A program made the translations under genes and the position numbers. From assembly GCA_014843695.1 (NCBI GenBank), contig CM026391.1:17647263-17711262 (forward strand): 64,000 bases of DNA, written 5' to 3'. Below the pieces are notes generated by a model. That model was not told the origin of the DNA. It saw nothing but the letters and a program-made list of their open reading frames with translations, and made no database searches. This stretch comes from Archivesica marissinica. Its lineage: Eukaryota > Mollusca > Bivalvia > Venerida > Vesicomyidae. Below are positions 5,641 through 31,469 of this stretch, piece by piece (the stretch's first letter is position 1; each line of letters starts with the position of its first letter).

Positions 5641-6304
5641 GACTCGTGGCTAGCTGTCTGTACTCGTGGCTAGCTGCCTGTACTCGTGGCTAGCTTTCTG
5701 TACTCGTGGCTAGCTGTACTTGTGGCTAGCTGTCTGTACTCGTGGCTAGCTGCCTGTACTCGTGGCTAGCTGCCTGTACTCATGGCTAGCTTTCTGTACT
5801 CGTGGCTAGCTGTACTCGTGGCTAGCTGTACTCGTGGCTAGCTACCTGTACTCATGGCTAGCTTTCTGTACTCGTGGCTAGCTGCCTGTACTCGTGGCTA
5901 GCTGCCTGTACTCGTGGCTAGCTGTCTGTACTCATGGCTAGCTGTCTGTACTCATGGCTATCTGTCTGTACTCATGGCTAGCTGTCTGTACTCGTGGCTA
6001 GCTGCCTGTACTCATGGCTAGCTATACTCATGTTTATCGCCACTGATGAGAATAATATGTTCTTATGTTTATGCCAATGTTCATTTGGTGAAATATAATT
6101 TGATCATTCACTTAAACAAACAAATTTTATTTTAAAATGAAATGGGTTTTTATGATAGAAAACGATGCAACCGTCGCTAATTGGCGCGAGAACTAGAAGA
6201 CAATAAATGACGTCGCTAACAACTTGTGGCTAGCTGTCTGTACTCGTGGCTAGCTGCCTGTACTCGTGGCTAGCTGCCTGTACTCATGGCTAGCTTTCTG
6301 TACC
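5641..6304. repeat. minisatellite, 20 bp CTAGC unit, split into two blocks
   Basis: The unit TACTCGTGGCTAGCTGTCTG is repeated from about 5641 to 6030, and again at about 6226-6304 after roughly 190 bp of unrelated sequence. GCTAGC makes each unit partly self-complementary. The interruption shows either insertion or seeding of a second block. Confidence 0.93.
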
Positions 6305-19327: not shown

Positions 19328-19558
19328 TTAAGCGAGACACACATCGATCCTATCCAGTAGAAACTTGACCCCTTCCGCTTTCTTCAGCACTCTCGGAACT
19401 TTGTATTGGTTCGGTGAGCCGGTTGTCGTCTCTATCATAAACGCTCGGAGATCTGCAAACGTGCCCGGCTTGACGATGTACACCTTCATTGGTCCAATGC
19501 TTCCGCTACGACGGTATGATGCATAGACATACATCAAGGCCTTCAACTCCGCATCAAC
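19328..19558 (-). CDS. GH3 gene last exon
   Basis: Starts VDAELKALMYVYASYRRSGS and contains KVYIVKPGTFADLRAFMIE, the PGTF segment common near the end of GH3 proteins. It closes with DVCLA and TAA. Confidence 0.9.
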   Translation of the reverse strand, partial: VDAELKALMYVYASYRRSGSIGPMKVYIVKPGTFADLRAFMIETTTGSPNQYKVPRVLKKAEGVKFLLDRIDVCLA

Positions 19559-22500
19559 CTACCCAAAATAAAATGGCTTTATTTTGTTTTTGGATTTGAG
19601 TCAGACATGCAACAAAGACGATTTTTGGTTAATTCAGATTTTGGAGGTTAGTGTAACGATACAGACAGAGATCCATATACACTCTATAATGCATAAATAT
19701 GTGTGACAAGAGTAATTTTGAGAACACGGGTCTACTGAACTTACTTGTAATTTTGGGAACATGGGTCTACTGAACTTAACTTGTAATTTTGGGAACACGG
19801 GTCTACTGAACTTATTTGTAATTTTGGGAACATGGGTCTACTGAACTTACTTGTAATTTTGGGAACACGGGTCTACTGAACTTACTTGTAATTTTGAGAA
19901 CACGGGTCTACTGAACTTACTTGTAATTTTAGGAACACGGGTCTACTGAACATACTTGTAATTTTGAGAACACGGGTCTACTGAACTTGCTTGTAATTTT
20001 GGGAACACGGGTCTACTGAACTTACTTGTAATTTTGGGAACACGGGTCTACTGAACTTGCTTGTAATTTTGGGAACACAGGTCTACTGAACTTACTTGTA
20101 ATTTTGGGAACACAGGTCTACTGAACTTACTTGTAATTTTGGGAACACAGGTCTACAGGTCTTTGAACTTAGTTGTAGTTTGGATGACACTGGTCTATGA
20201 ACTTACTTGTAGTTTGGATGACACTGGTCTATGAATTTACTTGTAGTTTGGATGACACTGGTCTATGAACTTACTTGTAGTTTGGATGACACTGGTCTAT
20301 GAACTTACTCCTAGTTTGGATGACACTGGTCTATGAACGTACTTGTAGTTTGGATGACACTGGTCTATGAACTTACTTGTAGTTTGGATGACACTGGTCT
20401 ATGAACTTACTTGTAGTTTGGATGACACTGGTCTATGAACTTACTCCTAGTTTGGATGACACTGGTCTATGAACTTACTCCTAGTTTGGATGACACTGGT
20501 CTATGAACTTACTTGTAGTTTGGATGACACTGGTCTATGAACTTACTCCTAGTTTGGATGACACTGGTCTATGAACTTACTTGTAGTTTGGATGACACTG
20601 GTCTATGAACTTACTCCTAGTTTGGATGACACTGGTCTATGAACGTACTTGTAGTTTGGATGACACTGGTCTATGAACTTACTTGTAGTTTGGATGACAC
20701 TGGTCTATGAACTTAGTTGTAGTTTGGATGACACTGGTCTATGAACTTACTCCTAGTTTGGATGACACTGGTCTATGAACTTACTTGTAGTTTGGATGAC
20801 ACTGGTCTATGAACTTACTTGTAGTTTGGATGACACTGGTCTATGAACGTACTTGTAGTTTGGATGACACTGGTCTATGAACGTACTTGTAGTTTGGATG
20901 ACACTGGTCTATAAACTTACTCCTAGTTTGGATGAGACTGGTCTTTGAACTTAGTTGTAGTTTGGATGACACTGGTCTATGAACTTACTCCTAGTTTGGA
21001 TGACACTGGTCTATGAACTTACTTGTAGTTTGGATGACACTGGTCTATGAACTTACTCCTAGTTTGGATGACACTGGTCTATGAACTTACTCCTAGTTTG
21101 GATGACACTGGTCTATGAACTTACTTGTAGTTTGGATGACACTGGTCTATGAACTTACTTGTAGTTTGGATGACACTGGTCTATAAACTTACTACATTGA
21201 TATAATCTCAATAAGCTTTACGCTTTCGATTAAATCCATTTTCATTCTGTATACAATAGATATGTACAGTACATTATGAATGAATAAATATGTGTAAACC
21301 AAACTTACTTGTAGTTTCGAGGACACAGTTTCTCCCTTCTCCAGTTCTATAAACACATGGTAACATGGGTTTGCAGGTGGTTTACCTGCAAGCAATGTTC
21401 ATCCTACATTAAATTCTAATTCAGTGTTCATTTTAGGTCATAATTTTTGGGAGAAGTGAGAAAGCGCGCGATCACGTCCTTAAATGGTGTTATTTAATAA
21501 ATGTCAACGAAATATGGTTAAAATGCACAGTATGACCATTAAATACAACATTATAATAGAAGGAGTGCTTTATAATTTATAATGGGACAGCGTGTCTTAC
21601 TGCCCAAAATTGTGTATGAAAATTGTAAAAAAAAAGAGAGAAAGAGACGTGGGGCCCCCACAGGATGGGCGAAGTCAGGGTCCCTAGGGTGCGACTATCC
21701 ACATTTCGCCTAAAATGAGCCATGTAATTAATTCACAAGTTACGTGAACAGGAGCACATTCAGGGTCCATAACTCTACGTCAATAGATGTGTACGCTGAA
21801 GGTGGGTCTTTATAAAGTACATGTTCCTGGGACACATTGACAGTGTTAACTTCAACCAACCAGTATTTAGTTATAAAATGGCCCCCGGATGAATGGACAA
21901 CGTGAAATGCAACCAACCAGTATTTAGTTATAAAATGGCCCCCGGATGGATGGACAACGTGAAATGCAACCAACCAGTATTTAGTTATAAAATGGCCCCC
22001 GGATGGATGGACAACGTGAAATGCAACCAACCAGTATTTAGTTATAAAATGGCCCCCGGATGGATGGACAACGTGAAATGCAACCAACCAGTATTTAGTT
22101 ATAAAATGGCCCCCGGATGGATGGACAACGTGAAATGCAACCAACCAGTATTTAGTTATAAAATGGCCCCCGGATGGATGGACAACGTGAAATGCAACCA
22201 ACCAGTATTTAGTTATAAAATGGCCCCCGGATGGATGGACAACGTGAAATGCAACCAACCAGTATTTAGTTATAAAATGGCCCCCGGATGGATGGACAAC
22301 GTGAAATGCAACCAACCAGTATTTAGCTATAAAATGGCCCCCGGATGAATGGACAATGTGAAATGCAACCAACAAGTATTTAGTTATAAAATGGCCCCCG
22401 GATGGACGAACAATGTGAAATCCAACCAATCAGTAGGTATTTATTTATAACGTTCCTATACACTAACATACCCTCAGACACCTGGTCCACCATGACACTT

Positions 22501-25500
22501 TCTGTGCAACAGTAGTCCACCATGTTATTGCCGGATTTCTGGATAGCAGAACTCAACGCCTGGTAAAAATAGTTTTCTGAAGTCTTCTCTCCTCTAACGT
22601 TCAGGAACTGACCCTGTCTAAATAGCATACTCATTGATTGAATGTACTACATGTAAGTACAGTAAAGTATTTACATGTACCAGAAAGTATATGTAATACA
22701 TATATGTACAGTAAGTATTTACATGTACCAGAAAGTACATGTAATACATATATGTACAGTAAAGTATTTACATGTACCAGAAAGTATATGTAATACATAT
22801 AAGTACAGTAAAGTATTTACATGTACAAGAAAGTATATGTGACCCGCCATATCAAAATCAGTCGTAAGTCGGGATTATCGTAAGGCAGATAATTACATTA
22901 TAAGTCAACAAAATGGTATTTTAACATTTTTCAGATAATGGTATTTTATAATCATTTATCTTTATAATAAATGTGATAGAAGCACGTATTTGTGTAATTT
23001 AAGGCATTAAAAACACATTTTAATTAGCTTGGTGTTAATTGCCATTGTTATTAATCGCAGTGAAACAAAAGATCTAAGCCGGGTAGGCGGTGCTTTCCGA
23101 TGGCCTTCAATGATACTGTCCCACGGTTTGGCCCCATGTATTTGGTACCGAAATAAACTAGAGATGACGTATTTTCAGCTGATGCTATTTTTGAAGTAAA
23201 ATCTTATATGCTTCCAACTAATAAAACGGCTTTAAATCGATAGAATTTTTTCAAAAATCTCTTCGGTTGCGACGTAAACACCATGTGATCTGCAAGTGCG
23301 CACCTGTTCCTATGTTCACAGACAATTGAATAAGAAACAAAACGATTTTCGGTGTGATTTCATGACGATTATTCATTATATAGCTTAATATTCAGATTTA
23401 TTTCGATGCAAATCAGTCATATATAGGTAAATGGTAAACCTAGACAAGTGTAGAACCTTTATCTGCTGATTTGTTGTGTGAAATTTTAACACACCGTTAT
23501 CTGCACCTGTGTTCGGTGTAGCCCAGTATTTCGGACGTACATTTATTTAATATAAATTCTAAAATAATACTTCACCTGAATCCAAAAGTTCATTCATTTT
23601 TTAATAACTATGACTTAATTCAGCTTTTATGTTTCATAATATTACAAAATAATTGTTTACTTTTCACTGTGAACCAGCATTTGACCCCTTTTCTAATTCA
23701 CAGCTGCACAATATACAATGTTACTTTACTTCCCACAAAAAGCCAAAATTACCCCCTAATCCTTTCCTAAAACAACACAACTGATAAGGGGAATTGTGCA
23801 TGTTAATTGATCAATGAAACACTGCTACTTTGTAGGCCTACTATGATCCAATTAACAGGATTATATAACAGCAGGTGTCCACTTATGCCCTAAGCACTGT
23901 CAGATCAGACTAATCAAAGCAATATACAGGAGCCATAAAACTAGAATATCTACAAAGACATGGAGATTGCTACATGTACTCTGAAAAGTCAGAATAATCC
24001 TTTCAGGATATATTGGTTTAAGTAAATAAAATTTAAGTCAATAAAAAATATTTTTAAATTTATTTTTATTATTTATTTTTTATTTATTATTATTATTGTA
24101 TCTATACTAGAACAGCTGAACCACTATGTATACTACACAGTTCAGCAAGTGGCATTTTAAAGAATGGACATTTACCTTTAATTTGATACCAAACAGGACT
24201 AGTTGTGTCATGTGGAACATATTGGTTGCTATGGTGTTTTTATTTCACTGCGTCTCCAAATTTTGTTAAAATAAGTTAGAATTTCTGAAAATCTTTGACA
24301 GCCGTTTTCTCGGAATATTAATCGCATGAAGTCCATTATTCAAATGGTCATAACTTTGGACTGGAACAAGCTACATGAATGATACTGATATCACTAGAAA
24401 GCGTATACTTATACCTATATGATGGTATAGTTAACTCATTATTTATTTGTTCCGACTTAAGACTGATTTTGTCATGGTGGGTCACATATGTAATACATAT
24501 AAGTACAGTAAATTATTTACCAGAAAGTGTATGTAATACATATAAGTACAGTAAATTATTTACCAAAAAGTATATGTAATACATATAAGTACAGTAAAGT
24601 ATTATCAGAAAGTATATTCAGTACAAACAAGTACATTAAACTACATGTATGTACCAGAAAGTATATGTGATACAAACAATATTATTGTTATATTTCGGGT
24701 TTTACGCCTGCATCAGCACCATTTTGGGCTATATCGCCGGCGGGCAGTTTACCTAACAACACCTTTCCTGGGCAGGCTCCAGCGGTTAACCAGTACTTGG
24801 TGCACCAACCTCCGTAAGAAACTGCCGACTTATATAAATGAGACACAGCCTGAGCGGGGCTCGAACCCGTGACCATCAGTGATGATAGGTTACAGTGGTA
24901 TACAAGTCAGCGACCTTAACCACTCGACCACGGAGGCGGACGTGATACAAACAAGTACATTAAACTATTTACCAGTACTTTCTACACAAGCTACCAAGAT
25001 AATAATTATATTAAAGCTCTGATGTTTCGCTTTCTACCACTGAACTGTGACTGAGAGAGGCAGGCATCAGAGTACATCTAGACTGGGCCTTGAGTACTGG
25101 GACAGGTAGGGACCTGAACACTGGGACATCTAGGCTGGGCCTCAAGTACTGGGACAGGTAGGGAGGGACCTTGGGACAGAAACAGGTAGGAAGCCGGGGA
25201 CTGGGATAGGTAGGGACCTGGGGACATGAACAAGTAGGGACCCCACCCCAAGAAGTTGGACAGGTGGGGAACGGGGATTGGAACAGGTAGGGACCACAAG
25301 CCTGGGAAAGGTTGGACCTTTGTACTTGGCAGGTAGGGATTGACTGAAACAGCTTAGGAATGAATCTGTGTATATCACTCACCTATATTGAAACTCTATC
25401 ACGGGACAAGAGTTATGGTGGCCAACGACCTTGACAACGTCACCAAATCTGTACCGGTACAAACCACTGGCATTGGTGATTACTAACTCATAGATCTGAT

Positions 25501-28500
25501 CAACCTCCACCTGAAACAACATCCAGATTAGCGCAGTGGTTAGCGCGCTCGCTTCTCGCCAATGCAACCCGGGTTCAATCCTCGGACCGGGTAGTATGTG
25601 AGATGGTATGGTGGTCGCCAGATCGGACAGGTGGGATTTCTCCGGGTATACCGGTTTCCTCCCACACGAATGACCACATATACGCTTTCATCCGCGCCAA
25701 CGAGAGTGATTAATATAAGTTGTTAAAACTTGCTTTGCAATCGTTGTAAAATATAAAAAAATTGAACTTTCTTTAAATATTATTTAAATGTTAACAATTT
25801 TATTTTTTTAACATCCAGAACTATTTACCCACTAATATCATCAGTTGTCATTCATATAATCAGGGGCTCAAGCTAGACCCAACTTTTTGGGAGAAGTGAG
25901 AAAACGCGCGATTGCGTCATCTAATGGTATAATTTAATAAATTTCAACGTAATAGGGTTAAAATACACAATATAACCATTAAATACAATATTTGAATAGA
26001 TCACTTTACAATGGCCAGTGGACAATATTTAGTCTGAATATTGTTATTATTTTTTTAGGGAGAAGTGATGCACCCAGGGGACGAAGTCAGGGTCCCTATG
26101 ACAGCTACTTTGCCAGTCGACCTCTAGAATTAGCCCTGATAATAATTTGAAATTGTTTAGCATATACATCTATACATGTACTGTGAACAGATTTCACCTA
26201 TTTTCAATGTTAACTATATTATTCTTCTGCCTATTGACCAATTGATAATCGCATAATTTCATTCTATTGCTATTAATTTATATGTAAAATGACGATTTCT
26301 TTGAATACATATAAAAAAAATACTGAAATAAATAATGTTTAAAGATATATTCCTGTTCCAAAAAAAACAAATAGCATAGTATGTGTCGGACTGTCACGTT
26401 CTTTTAGGTTTTTTTACGTTTATTTATCGTCGCTACCGGTTGCCCATATGAGAGACGCCTCCTGAAGAGATTAGTCATTTTTGGAGGATAGTGCGATGAT
26501 ACATACAGAGACCCATTCCAGAGTCTCCTCTGGTTCTTTTACGTGCACGGTGTACAGCACTGACACGAGACCTCGGTTTAACGTCCCATCTGAAAAACTG
26601 TTAATTTTATTAGGGTCAGACGGGGGATCGAACCTGCGATCCCTGGAGTACCAGTCCAGCGTGTTACCACTGGCAATATCAATAAAACATGCTAGTGATC
26701 TTAACTCAAAGCTAGTAAACAGTTACCTCATCCAGGAACAGTGTTTTAGGCTGTTCCTCTTCACAATTTTGAACGGGGATGAATTCAAAGAACATAGATT
26801 TTAGAGCGAGTAGATAGCGGCTTGGTCTCTCTCGTGGCCAGATATTGACTCCTAGAAGTCCTTCTGAGGCAGCGTAGAGCGGAGAGTAGACTGGCGTACC
26901 ATTACAGTAGACATCCCTCAGTCTGCTACCGTACAGTTCAAATGTTCCAGAATCGGCGGTCATGACGAAGTTCAGTCTTGGCCACACCCGGTTTGCCAGT
27001 CCAGTCAAGCCCAGCTCTCTAGCCTGATGGAGCTCGTTCGCTCGTGCTGGATCAGGCGACATAGACTCGTTTAGCTCTTTCCTCACACCATCCTCTAACT
27101 GTAGACTGTCACTTATATAACCATTTTCAATGTCATTCACTAACGAGTCCCAGTTTGTGTCTAGAGACTGGAATGCAGAATATACAAGAGCTGCAAAGTT
27201 GGCTTCAATGATTCCTAAATTACTATCTTTCAATCCAAACAATAGATGGACATACAGTGCCTCGGGCTCGGTAAGGATGTCAAAACCAGCCATAGGAGTA
27301 GAGTACATGCTCAGTATTCTCTTCGAGTTTGCAGGAGATGAGGAGTTTGGTCCGACAGGAATTCCGCATTCTGACGTTTTCAGGACGGGCGTGTAGAAGA
27401 ATTTCATGTCTTTCTGTTGGCTGCCCGATTCGGGAAACGCGGTTCTCATGCTGTCGTATATAATCGCAATCCCCTGTGTGAAGAACGTGCTCTGTTGATT
27501 CTTCAGCATTGGGATTGTGGAACGCTTCCCGGACGTTCCAGACGTCACAGCAAATATAACAGGCTGTTCCTTAGTCAGTACATTTGTCTCCCCTGCCATC
27601 ATACGCTTCACGTAAGGTTCATAATGTGGATATCTGTAAATAGACAATACGCTAGACATACTTGTTTTGGAATACAGTTATATATCATCGTACATTGGCT
27701 GTGGATATCTGTAAATAGACAATACGCTAGACATACTTAATTTGGAATACAGTTATTTATCATCGTGCATTGGCTAAACGGGGCGACGCGTCCAGAAGTA
27801 TATTTGTCAATTTACGTTTTGGAGGCTGGTTGGTACTAAATACAGCAGACGTTACAATTGCGGAATCATCCATGTTTGTTTTACATACCCGGTGTATAGC
27901 ACCGATATGATAGATTTTTGGAGGATAGTGCAATGATACAGACAGAGACCAATTCCAGAGTCTCCTCTGGTTCTTTTACGTGCACGGTGTACAGCACCGA
28001 CACAAGACCTCGGTTTAACGTCCCATCTGAAAGATTTAATATCATTAATGTCAGGCGGGGGTTCGAACCCGTGATCCCTGGATTCGCAGTCAAACATGCT
28101 AACCATCTTCCACAGTACTACTGATAACATTATAACAGTCACTTACCTGGTTAGTGGATGAAACTTGACAAAGTCATCCCTGCTCCACCATAATACTGAT
28201 AACATTATAGCAGTCACTTACCTGGTTAGTGGATGAAACTTGACAAAGTCATCCCTGCTCCACCGTACTACTGATAACATTATAACAGTCACATACATGG
28301 TTAGTGGATGAAACTTGACAAAGTCATCCCTGCTCCACCGTGCTACTGATAACATTATAGCAGTCACTTACATGGTTAGTGGATGAAACTTGACAAAGTC
28401 ATCCCTGCTCCACCGTACTACTGATAACATTATAAGTCACATACATGGTTAGTGGATGAAACTTGACAAAGTCATCCCTGCTCCACCGTACTACTGATAA

Positions 28501-28723
28501 CATTATAACAGTCACATACCTGGTTAGTGGATGAAACTTGACAAAGTCATCCCTGCCCTTGATGTCGGCGAACATGAATCTTTGCCCATACTCTGTGCCG
28601 GCATTGTCATTGATTCTCTCCATAAGTGTGTCATTCTGAGCCAACTGCACATTTTTCGTCGAGTCTTCCAACTTCCTTCTCATATACCAGCCCAGCCAGC
28701 TCACGCCGGAGACTGTGATGTAC
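19328..28723 (-). CDS. GH3-family protein (GHDC-like), six exons, 5' end missing
   Basis: Exons on the minus strand are 28723-28520, 27633-26727, 25510-25383, 22617-22472, 21385-21309 and 19558-19328, all with GT-AG introns and matching phases. They join into 563 residues and a TAA stop. Family signatures are the nucleotide-binding loop TSGTSGK (residues 98-104), YAASEG (321-326) and GLYRYRFGDVV (386-396), in the order expected for GH3. Plant GH3 enzymes adenylate acyl acids and join them to amino acids; the animal proteins of this family have no settled reaction, so substrate is unknown. The N-terminal exon (probably signal or membrane anchor, a few tens of residues) was not found. The gene is unusual in that several junctions are embedded in tandem arrays made of copies of the same junctions (see findings). 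Confidence 0.9.
19690..21184. repeat. 34 bp minisatellite in GH3 intron 5 carrying donor-like sequence
   Basis: Two related sub-arrays. About 19690-20155 uses a unit with AACTTACTTGTAATTTTGGG; about 20156-21184 uses AACTTACTTGTAGTTTGGAT. Read on the gene strand the second unit gives ACTACAAGTAAGTT, matching the real exon 5 end and donor (CTACAA then GTAAGTTT). Many copies read CCTAG or CGTAC instead and are weaker matches. There are about 14 copies of the first type and about 30 of the second. Confidence 0.95.
21185..21309 (+). mobile_element. LINE 3' tail insertion at the GH3 exon 5 donor
   Basis: About 107 bp (21194-21300) match the 3' tail of the LINE at 59903-60880: AATCTCAATAAGCTTTA, TTTAATCCATTTTC-like, GTATACAAT and GAATAAATATGTnTAAACC. 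The direct repeat AAACTTACT lies at 21185-21193 and 21301-21309. The right copy contains the real donor, so the insertion duplicated it. Confidence 0.8.
21309..21385 (-). CDS. GH3 gene exon 5 (77 bp)
   Basis: Acceptor TTGCTTGCAG, then KPPANPCYHVFIELEKGETV and SSKLQ, donor GTAAGTTT. It bridges exons 4 and 6 in phase, and HVFIEL matches the position of the GH3 HYxxFxEL-type segment. The donor lies inside the target duplication of a LINE tail. Confidence 0.85.
21426..21719. mobile_element. dispersed repeat family F
   Basis: Ends TTCATTTTAGG and CCTAAAATGAgCC are inverted. Internal GGGAGAAGTGAGAAAGCGCG and GGTCCCTAGGGTGCGACTA match the copies at 25861 and 49857. It lies in GH3 intron 4 and is non-coding. 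Confidence 0.6.
21855..22415. repeat. minisatellite, 57 bp unit, about 10 near-identical copies
   Basis: The unit contains AACCAACCAGTATTTAG, AAAATGGCCCCCGGATGG and ATGGACAACGTGAAATGC. Since 57 is 3 x 19, both strands stay open (about 229 codons minus, 151 plus). Inner copies look identical; only end copies vary. It lies in GH3 intron 4, about 55 bp from exon 4. Confidence 0.95.
22472..22617 (-). CDS. GH3 gene exon 4
   Basis: Encodes QGQFLNVRGEKTSENYFYQA through VMVDQVSE; the NxRGEK-like stretch is typical of the GH3 C-terminal part. Acceptor TATTTAG, donor GTATGT, ending in phase 1. Confidence 0.88.
22645..22837. repeat. 47 bp minisatellite, left part (interrupted)
   Basis: Units of about 47 bp containing ACATGTACCAGAAAGTATAT and GTACAGTAAAGTATT. 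The array is broken at 22838 by a 1.65 kb inverted-ended element and resumes at 24487-24675. Confidence 0.9.
22838..24486. mobile_element. 1.65 kb non-coding DNA transposon with TGTGACCC ends
   Basis: Left end TGTGACCCGCCATATCAAAA and right end matching TGTGACCCACCATGACAAAA when inverted, flanked by TA. The flanking array repeats fit together exactly once the element and one TA are removed. No reading frame of note lies inside. The TA target fits Tc1/mariner-type insertion. It sits in GH3 intron 3. Confidence 0.8.
24487..24675. repeat. 47 bp minisatellite, right part
   Basis: Continuation of the array at 22645 (ATGTAATACATATAAGTACA, AAATTATTTACC) after the inserted element. A last diverged unit appears beyond the SINE at about 24945. 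Confidence 0.85.
24712..24940 (-). mobile_element. SINE family D with a different 3' region
   Basis: Minus strand: CCGCCTCCGTGGTCGAGTGG, GTATACCACTGTAACC, B box GGGTTCGAGCCCC and CCAAGTACTGGTTAACCGC are all typical of family D. The tail is not the GGGCAACC type but CCGGCGATATAGCCC. It lies in GH3 intron 3. Confidence 0.78.
25070..25375. repeat. irregular G-rich repeats next to GH3 exon 3
   Basis: Imperfect repeats of CTGGGACAGGTAGGGACC of about 20-40 bp end within 10 bp of the exon 3 donor. On the gene strand this is a C/T-rich stretch at the start of intron 3. Confidence 0.8.
25383..25510 (-). CDS. GH3 gene exon 3
   Basis: Encodes VEVDQIYELVITNASG then LYRYRFGDVVKVVGHHN, the third GH3 signature. 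Donor GTGAGT. A SINE begins only a few bases upstream of its acceptor (TTGTTTCAG). Confidence 0.9.
25518..25819 (+). mobile_element. SINE family C with target duplication at the GH3 exon 3 acceptor
   Basis: Full family C copy (25528-25809): GATTAGCGCAGTGGTTAGCG head, B box GGTTCAATCC, CTCCCACACGAATGACCAC, tail GATTAATATAAGTTGTT. It is flanked by the direct repeat AACATCCAGA (25518-25527 and 25810-25819). The left repeat starts about 6 bp from the acceptor AG of exon 3. Confidence 0.88.
25861..26143. mobile_element. dispersed repeat family F
   Basis: GGGAGAAGTGAGAAAACGCG near the left and GGTCCCTATGACAGCTACTT near the right, with ends GCTCAAGCTAG and CTAGAATTAGCCC. It lies in GH3 intron 2. 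Confidence 0.55.
26408..26676 (-). mobile_element. SINE family A
   Basis: Tail GTTTATTTATCGTCGCTACC, body and tRNA-like head (GGGATCGAACCTGCGATCCC, ACCAGTCCAGCGTG) read on the plus strand. It lies in GH3 intron 2, about 50 bp from the exon 2 donor. Confidence 0.83.
26727..27633 (-). CDS. GH3 gene exon 2 (main GH3 domain)
   Basis: Acceptor TTGTCTATTTACAG leads to YPHYEPYVKRMMAGE. The exon carries the TSGTSGK nucleotide loop and the YAASEG motif and ends at TLFLDE with donor GTAACT in phase 0. A second copy of its acceptor lies 75 bp upstream. Confidence 0.92.
27622..27780. repeat. 75 bp duplication carrying the GH3 exon 2 acceptor
   Basis: GTGGATATCTGTAAATAGAC, AATACGCTAGACATACTT and GGAATACAGTTAT occur twice, offset by 75 bp. 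The copy at about 27702-27725 repeats the acceptor (CTATTTACAG on the gene strand) plus the first 8 bases of exon 2. Confidence 0.9.
27908..28106 (-). mobile_element. SINE family A, tail lost
   Basis: Body and head are present (GGAGGATAGTGCAATGATAC, GGGGGTTCGAACCCGTGATC) but the GGGCAACCGGTAGCG tail is missing. It lies in GH3 intron 1. Confidence 0.78.
28142..28519. repeat. 75 bp array made from the GH3 exon 1 donor edge
   Basis: Six copies (the last is the real junction). Each holds GGTTAGTGGATGAAACTTGA and CAAAGTCATCCCTGC, which on the gene strand is the last 36 bases of exon 1, followed by GTAAGTGACTG or GTATGTGACTG. The first five copies diverge from the exon beyond that point (TCCACCGTACTACTG). 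Some read CCAT instead of CCAG before GT. Confidence 0.93.
28520..28723 (-). CDS. GH3 gene exon 1 (first visible exon)
   Basis: Acceptor CCGTCCAG precedes YITVSGVSWLGWYMRRKL and the exon closes with FHPLTR before donor GTATGT. The first base completes a codon from an unseen upstream exon. Both edges are duplicated: the acceptor edge about 21 times upstream (28724-30476) and the donor edge five times downstream (28142-28500). Confidence 0.85.
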
Positions 28724-30476
28724 CTGGACGGTAAGGACAGACAGTAATTATATACATGTACCCCGATACCAGCCCAGCCAGCTCACGCCGGAGACTGTGA
28801 TGTACCTGGATGGTGAGGACAGACAGTGATTATATACATGTACCCCGATACCAGCCCAGCCAGCTCACGCCGGAGACCGTGATGTACCTGGACGGTAAGG
28901 GCAGACAGTGATTATATACATGTACCCCGATACCAGCCCAGCTAGCTCACGCCGGAGACCGTGATGTACCTGGACGGTAAGGGCAGACAGTGATTATATA
29001 CATGTACCCCGATACCAGCCCAGCCAGCTCACGCCGGAGACCGTGATGTACCTGGACGGTAAGGGCAGACAGTGATTATATACATGTACCCCAATACCAG
29101 CCCAGCCAGCTCACGCCGGAGACCGTGATGTACCTGGACGGTAAGGACAGACAGTATTTATATATATGTACCCCGATACCAGCCCAGCCAGCTCACGCCA
29201 GAGACTGTGATGTACCTGGACGGTAAGGACAGACAGTGATTATATACATGTACCCCGATACCAGCCCAGCCAGCTCACGCCGGAGACCGTGATGTACTGG
29301 ACGGTAAGGGCAGACAGTGATTATATACATGTACCCTGATACCAGCCCAGCCAGCTCACGCCGGAGACCGTGATGTACCTGGACGGTAAGGACAGACAGT
29401 GATTATATACATGTACCCCGATACCAGCCCAGCCAGCTCACGCCGGAGACCGTGATGTACCTGGACGGTAAGGACAGACAGTAATTATATACATGTACCC
29501 CGATACCAGCCCAGCCAGCTCACGCCGGAGACCGTGATGTACCTGGACGGTAAGGGCAGACAGTGATTATATACATGTACCCCGATACCAGCCCAGCCAG
29601 CTCACGCCGGAGACCGTGATGTACCTGGACGGTAAGGGCAGACAGTGATTATATACATGTACCCCGATACCAGCCCAGCCAGCTCACGCCGGAGACCGTG
29701 ATGTACCTGGACGGTAAGGGCAGACAGTGATTATATACATGTACCCGATACCAGCCCAGCCAGCTCACGCCGGAGACCGTGATGTACCTGGACGGTAAGG
29801 ACAGACAGTAATTATATACATGTACCCCGATACCAGCCCAGCCAGCTCACGCCGGAGACCGTGATGTACCTGGACGGTAAGGACAGACAGTGATTATATA
29901 CATGTACCCTGATACCAGCCCAGCCAGCTCACGCCGGAGACCGTGATGTACCTGGACGGTAAGGGCAGACAGTGATTATATACATGTACCCTGATACCAG
30001 CCCAGCCCACGCCGGAGACCGTGATGTACCTGGACGGTAAGGACAGACAGTGATTATATACATGTACCCCGATACCAGCCCAGCCAGCTCACGCCGGAGA
30101 CCGTGATGTACCTGGACGGTAAGGACAGACAGTGATTATATACATGTACCCTGATACCAGCCCAGCCAGCTCACGCCGGAGACCGTGATGTACCTGGACG
30201 GTAAGGGCAGACAGTGATTATATACATGTACCCTGATACCAGCCCAGCCCACGCCGGAGACCGTGATGTACCTGGACGGTAAGGACAGACAGTGATTATA
30301 TACATGTACCCCGATACCAGCCCAGCCAGCTCACGCCGGAGACCGTGATGTACCTGGACGGTAAGGGCAGACAGTGATTATATACATGTACCCCGATACC
30401 AGCCCAGCCAGCTCACAACGGAGACCGTGATGTACCTGGATGGTAAGGACAGACAGTAATTATATACATGTACCCC
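28724..30476. repeat. 82 bp array made from the GH3 exon 1 acceptor edge, about 21 copies
   Basis: Each unit contains CCAGCCCAGCCAGCTCACGC, CGGAGACCGTGATGTACCTG and GACGGTAAGG. On the gene strand this is the acceptor CCGTCCAG plus 13 codons (YITVSGVSWLGWY) of exon 1. The real exon 1 edge is the copy at 28687-28735. Copies are very alike, with two short deletions near 30005 and 30245. Third-position differences from the real exon leave the peptide unchanged in most copies. Confidence 0.95.
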
Positions 30477-30763
30477 GATACTTTGCTTATGAAAAAGTAC
30501 ATAATTTATTTTAACAGGATCAAAAACAAAAGTATACAGAGTAAGTGGTTATTCCCATTAGATTATGAAGGACCAAATACTAGTAATTATGTAGATATGA
30601 ATAATTAAAAAAAATTTAATGGTACATTGAAATTATCAGGTATTAATGTCAACTATGACAAGATGTGTAGTGTCAAGTTAGAGCTAAATTTAATCCAAAT
30701 AATCAAATACAATATATACATGTAGTTTGCATCAGAGTTTGAAAGAGCGAACCTTACATAACC

Positions 30764-31398: not shown

Positions 31399-31469
31399 AT
31401 AATACCTGTCAATAGCACTGAACACCATTGTTCATGTAGATTCAGTTGAGTTCAAACATCACACTGTGA

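Follow-up and report, generated by a model that had tools for sequence, protein, structure and literature searches.

Minisatellite copies of exon–intron junctions in a GH3-domain gene of the clam Archivesica marissinica

A GH3-domain gene of the vesicomyid clam Archivesica marissinica carries tandem copies of its own splice junctions in its introns. The exon 1 acceptor, the exon 1 donor and the exon 2 acceptor are each the end unit of their own array, and diverged copies of the exon 5 donor lie at some distance from that junction. Tandem repeats that cross exon–intron borders are already known from amphioxus, where they are named mirages, and as far as searches of the open-licence literature show, the GH3 case is new for molluscs. 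The mirages found here are probably ordinary minisatellites, a by-product of dense tandem arrays in which the founding duplication spanned a junction by chance; we put this reading at a probability of roughly 0.6. Similar structures are present in unrelated genes, and the overall rate at sampled junctions is not significantly above that of the intron background.

The GH3 gene and its junction arrays

The window, the whole stretch of 64,000 nucleotides that was analysed, belongs to an assembly of 1.54 Gb. The GH3 gene lies on its minus strand, with seven coding exons, 12 junctions and GT-AG introns. The coding part of exon 0 (31406–31428), which reads MVFSAID followed by AG, is placed by its match to the N-terminus of the Mercenaria protein. 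This exon is lacking from the exon list of the original prediction, whose exons 1–6 are otherwise kept in the model. Exon 1 occupies 28520–28723, exon 2 26727–27633, exon 3 25383–25510, exon 4 22472–22617, exon 5 21309–21385 and exon 6, including the stop codon, 19328–19558, all on the minus strand. GH3 domains are assigned to the joined protein by Pfam, and the nearest named protein is from Mercenaria mercenaria, with 84% identity. Among the best 120 matches there is no A. marissinica transcript for this gene. A second locus with a GH3 domain (G000:C10:4097079-4097924) holds most of the N-terminal domain in a single open frame.

Each junction was tested with the 30-mer centred on it, which was searched for in the 3 kb to each side with up to 8 mismatches allowed. 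Copies are found for 4 of the 12 GH3 junctions, every one of them on the intron side, and the other eight junctions have none. The exon 1 acceptor has 20 copies, the exon 1 donor five, the exon 2 acceptor one and the exon 5 donor seven. The array at the exon 1 acceptor (28684–30481, minus strand) has about 22 copies of an 82-bp unit that spans the acceptor and reaches 40 bp into exon 1. At the donor of the same exon, about six copies of a 75-bp unit (28109–28556, minus strand) take in the donor along with 37 bp of exon 1. The exon 2 acceptor, together with 9 bp of exon 2, belongs to a 75-bp duplication with two copies (27625–27775, minus strand). The match to the nearest copy enters the exon by the same 40, 37 and 9 bp. 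The AG or GT dinucleotide is kept in all 20 copies of the exon 1 acceptor, all five copies of the exon 1 donor and the single copy at exon 2. Some variants in the GH3 arrays recur across several units, and two other copies have the same silent variant as the exon copy. The units of 34, 75, 75 and 82 bp are minisatellite-like in size.

The exon 5 donor shows a looser relationship. Its seven copies, with 7–8 mismatches per 30 positions, are carried by a 35-bp array (19713–20157, minus strand; limits approximate and set by eye). This array is kin of an adjoining 34-bp array of about 30 copies (20158–21193, minus strand), which ends at 21193, about 115 bp off the junction, and whose unit agrees with the exon 5 donor at 23 of 25 bp. 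Of 4000 random 60-mers taken outside arrays, 2 score as well as this common stretch of 25 bp with two mismatches. The copies are probably a displaced relative of the junction, judging from this likeness. Overall, the sequence likeness of the junctions and their copies is far above chance. The original prediction held that four exon edges of this gene have tandem copies in the neighbouring intron, each copy carrying the splice signal with a piece of exon. Both statements stand for the three edges inside arrays, while at the exon 5 donor the copies are diverged and displaced and the likeness is weaker. The predicted spacings of 75, 75–82 and 34 bp agree with the arrays found, and the suggestion that introns are lengthened by tandem amplification of exon-edge DNA is supported by the junction-spanning arrays.

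Two further features of the window were noted. A segment at 22835–24489 is bounded by inverted 38-nt ends that are 89% complementary and stand 1579 nt apart, and it sits between two arrays of one unit of about 43–49 bp (22642–22840 and 24486–24674). A non-autonomous DNA transposon that landed within a minisatellite is the probable explanation. A dispersed element at 19625–19676 has 36 of 43 matches listed, spread over many contigs (40 of 659 candidates scored), and similar sequence is visible near 26475–26600 and 27916–28030.

Junction copies in other genes and the intron background

Tandem arrays are common in the window, as had been noted from the sequence. Tandem Repeats Finder (TRF) lists 40 arrays covering 32% of its length, and in seven chaperonin gene blocks the covered fraction is 27, 39, 41, 42, 44, 45 and 53%. 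These figures are lower bounds, since the 35-bp array described above is plain by eye yet absent from the TRF list.

A sample from outside the window comprises 101 junctions of 52 exons (52 donors and 49 acceptors) in chaperonin and myosin genes. Its junctions are predicted from the ends of HMM hits combined with splice-site weight matrices; a splice score below 2.5 led to the removal of 3 edges out of 104. A few missing chaperonin exons were added by a local HMM of paralogues. PDB alignments, which cover matched stretches only, did not recover the missing chaperonin exons; one of them agrees with the C14 junction (TALR/AKHAQ). The sample omits two exons of chaperonin block C8 that are exact duplicates, the loci L018, L019 and L036 (other strand, duplicate or unclear) and a weak exon of C2b at 6156. 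A tally that includes the two duplicate C8 exons uses 80 of 84 edges and has four matches. Mirages at C1 (15480) and C2b (near 6253) are excluded from the rate because they were found via their own arrays. In the chaperonin gene at L047–L050 (G000:C8:10263000-10302999), two exons each occur twice at identical score in a block with 1000 N, which may reflect either a segmental duplication or faulty assembly. Myosin head exons repeat at several places with identical scores in G000:C5:39.95-40.19 Mb, which suggests tandem myosin genes or assembly duplicates.

Intron-side copies are present at 6 of the 101 sampled junctions (about 6%), all of them donors (6/52, against 0/49 acceptors). Four donors have clear arrays: C8 at 32203 (nine copies, 76 bp), C8 at 36723 (25 copies, about 42 bp), C14 at 18434 (26-bp unit) and C18 at 3389 (12 copies, about 76 bp). 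The donors at L059 and L017 each have a single diverged copy. The FPGT gene in the window has intron-side copies at none of its four junctions, which brings the pooled rate to 6/105. As a control, 5366 points within introns were taken, each no closer than 150 bp to a called exon; uncalled exons may be present among them. Some copy is found for 46.6% of these points, with copies on the downstream side only for 3.93% and on the upstream side only for 3.93%. Under random seeding, a junction is expected to behave like a one-sided intron point. The six junctions seen compare with 3.97 expected (n = 101, p = 0.21), and the ratio of edges to control is 1.5, with a bootstrap range over loci (genes) of 0.6–2.7. 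The earlier view that array starts at exon edges go beyond random seeding is not borne out by this overall comparison, and within the sample it is only the donors, taken alone, that lie above the intron points.

The GH3 gene itself is locally unusual. Its own introns predict 0.78 such junctions out of 12, where four are seen (p = 0.006, or 0.04 for three junctions), and measured against the sample control p is 0.0009 for four junctions and 0.010 for three, but the gene was picked for its arrays. For an assumed 20,000 genes with 12 junctions each, about 73 genes with at least four such junctions are expected at a rate of 6/105, and about 16 at 4/105.

Splice sites in the copies

The copies look like functional splice sites, as would be expected if they were kept by selection as decoys that control GH3 splicing, one of the causes proposed at the outset. 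All 20 copies of the exon 1 acceptor score 8.9–9.1, against 9.1 for the real acceptor, and two of the five exon 1 donor copies score 12.7, against 10.0 for the real donor. However, the splice-motif columns vary like the rest of the unit (36/816 against 153/2988, p = 0.47, in eight arrays, two from GH3 and six from chaperonin genes), and housekeeping chaperonin genes carry similar arrays. Any of the 20 decoy acceptors, if used, would bring a stop within the first 17–54 codons, and four of the five decoy donors of exon 1 would lead to a stop near codon 116. The nearest decoy donor would add 75 nt in frame with no stop through exon 2, and it scores 6.0 against 10.0. Selection for decoy sites is therefore very improbable.

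Because the decoy acceptors and most decoy donors bring stops, correct GH3 expression needs the exon-side copy. Splicing would then ignore the copies, and exon definition is a plausible explanation for the choice of the exon-side copy. An in-frame micro-exon of 36 nt in each 82-bp unit, which would repeat YITVSGVSWLGW, is possible on paper and was rejected; its donor is weak, at 3.7 against 4.6 for the real donor of exon 0. With 20 equally scored copies upstream of it as competitors, the exon 1 acceptor provides a natural test of site choice. If GH3 splicing is clean, the choice of site is not explicable by site strength alone.

Origin of the arrays

The preferred reading, that these are ordinary minisatellites, involves the following steps. 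With tandem arrays filling a third to half of the gene space, small duplications would arise almost anywhere. Where a founding duplication spans an exon–intron junction and the additional copies fall within the intron, the coding sequence would be unchanged and the duplication could survive. A surviving duplication would grow by slippage or unequal exchange and so lengthen the intron, and correct splicing would then rest on picking the exon-side copy among near-identical sites. We infer this course of duplication and growth from the present form of the arrays. A like structure is found in unrelated genes, namely at the four sampled chaperonin donors with clear arrays and at two more found via their arrays.

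The order of events could be the reverse, with exon edges recruited from a minisatellite already present in the intron, and the terminal unit of exon 1 does run continuous with the array. Such an origin of exon 1 is ruled out by the exon start, YITVSGVSWLGWYMRRKLE, which is found unchanged in Mercenaria and with a single residue replaced in each of Mactra and Mya; for the exon edges in general it is scarcely credible. Conserved in other clams, the exon start is old coding sequence. In a local tblastn search the Mercenaria protein has 18 further matches in units of the 82-bp array, of 14–19 residues each, so that the arrays derive from an old exon edge. On these alignments, the exon preceded the array. 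It is likewise very unlikely that faulty assembly produced the arrays or the number of their copies. Chaperonin block C8, with its duplicated exon pairs and 1000 N, makes some mis-assembly likely in this assembly, but the window is without any N, the copies differ by scattered substitutions and indels, and the pattern recurs at several loci. More has to be weighed for the idea of donor hot spots, where polymerase pausing, R-loops or the local sequence would favour founding duplications and raise junction arrays two- to threefold over random seeding. Taken alone, the sampled donors exceed expectation (6/52 against 2.04, p = 0.016), whereas clear arrays alone give 4/52 (p = 0.15), two of the six matches being single diverged copies, and the excess for all junctions is not significant. 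The acceptors fall short of the expected 1.93 (p = 0.14). Within 100 array units of the chaperonin blocks, strong donors occur in sense and antisense at 9:1 (score 8) and 14:4 (score 7), and acceptors at 7:4 (score 7) and 11:10 (score 6). The donor tally consists partly of mirages already counted, plus two at exons outside the sample set. One of these exons ends in GGPEIE before GTACGT and is presumably an exon of CCT5; the other is near C2b 6253.

The placement of arrays and genome-wide motif counts also bear on this idea. The 84 arrays between called exons end within 60 bp of a donor seven times and of an acceptor eight times, with 4.06 expected for each, so that 15 ends lie near any junction against about 8.1 under uniform placement. 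One-sided points make up 7–10% within 150 bp of exons and about 5% deeper in introns. Across the genome, 12,027 of 48,819 occurrences of MAGGTRAGT (24.6%) start a tandem triple with 34–64 bp spacing, compared with 8,554 of 46,541 (18.4%) for the reversed motif as control. The stricter motif CAGGTAAGT gives 3,917/14,960 (26%) against 1,852/10,990 (17%) for its reverse. Split by strand, the rates are 26.8 and 22.1% for the donor motif and 21.0 and 15.6% for the reversed control. These counts lean towards donors. They are noisy, being dominated by large arrays and set against a reversed motif that does not make a perfect control. The gap between the strands of a single motif is nearly as wide as that between motif and control, and we rejected the counts as a test of seeding. 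The GH3 gene, with copies at 4 of 12 junctions, adds to the case for hot spots. A mild donor preference is possible, and donors as true hot spots are doubtful. As an observation apart, about a quarter of the consensus donor 9-mers of the genome start a tandem triple, a heavy load of possible decoy donors.

Relation to known mirages and implications

In amphioxus, mirages in Adh3 and in the globins BflGb6 and BflGb9 are described as tandem repeats across exon–intron borders, with units of 10–72 bp in Adh3 and 150–160 bp in the globins; regular splicing is undisturbed and the clusters are unstable in length (PMC3087553). Further mirages are given for lancelet troponin C and PGBD5 in a second paper (PMC3902484). 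As in those accounts, the GH3 copies are minisatellite-like in unit size, lie across borders at donors and acceptors and in many cases keep AG or GT. A unit across the border is found at three GH3 junctions, with the exon 5 donor copies displaced. The exon-side copy is described as the one used in amphioxus, and the same is deduced from sequence for GH3. The clam case differs in its bivalve host, in the three to four junctions affected in one gene, in the up to 20 further copies and in having an estimated base rate. The amphioxus mirages are backed by RT-PCR and haplotype comparison, whereas the GH3 case is known from a single assembly.

Two other systems are related in part. In Drosophila, introns are gained via tandem duplication of exonic AG/GT sites (PMC2891723). 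Duplicated splice-signal sequence is a source of new splice sites there as in the clam, but the Drosophila duplication lies within an exon and gives a new intron, while in GH3 existing introns grow. Human internal tandem repeats, with units of about 30 bp and about four copies on average, alter gene structure (PMC2812944). Like the GH3 arrays they are minisatellites and can sit at exon–intron borders; unlike them, they were found via comparison of paralogues and transcripts in segmental duplications. Among titles and the beginnings of abstracts in the open-licence literature, no molluscan or bivalve mirage is recognisable, and the accessible portion of the hard clam genome paper mentions tandem repeats in its methods only (PMC7831173).

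A broader claim would be that several per cent of the junctions of this bivalve, perhaps thousands, are self-copied, with donors struck above chance and acceptors purged. We consider this unlikely. If true, mirages would be a genome-wide process in two distant phyla, feeding intron growth and new splice sites, and would supply natural experiments on how a splice site is chosen, for example at the final one of 21 equal GH3 acceptors. In the papers cited here, amphioxus mirages are described gene by gene, whereas the clam case spans unrelated genes and about 6% of the sampled junctions. The sampled junction rate serves as a base rate for judging new mirage cases, and it suggests that minisatellite-dense genomes will have them.
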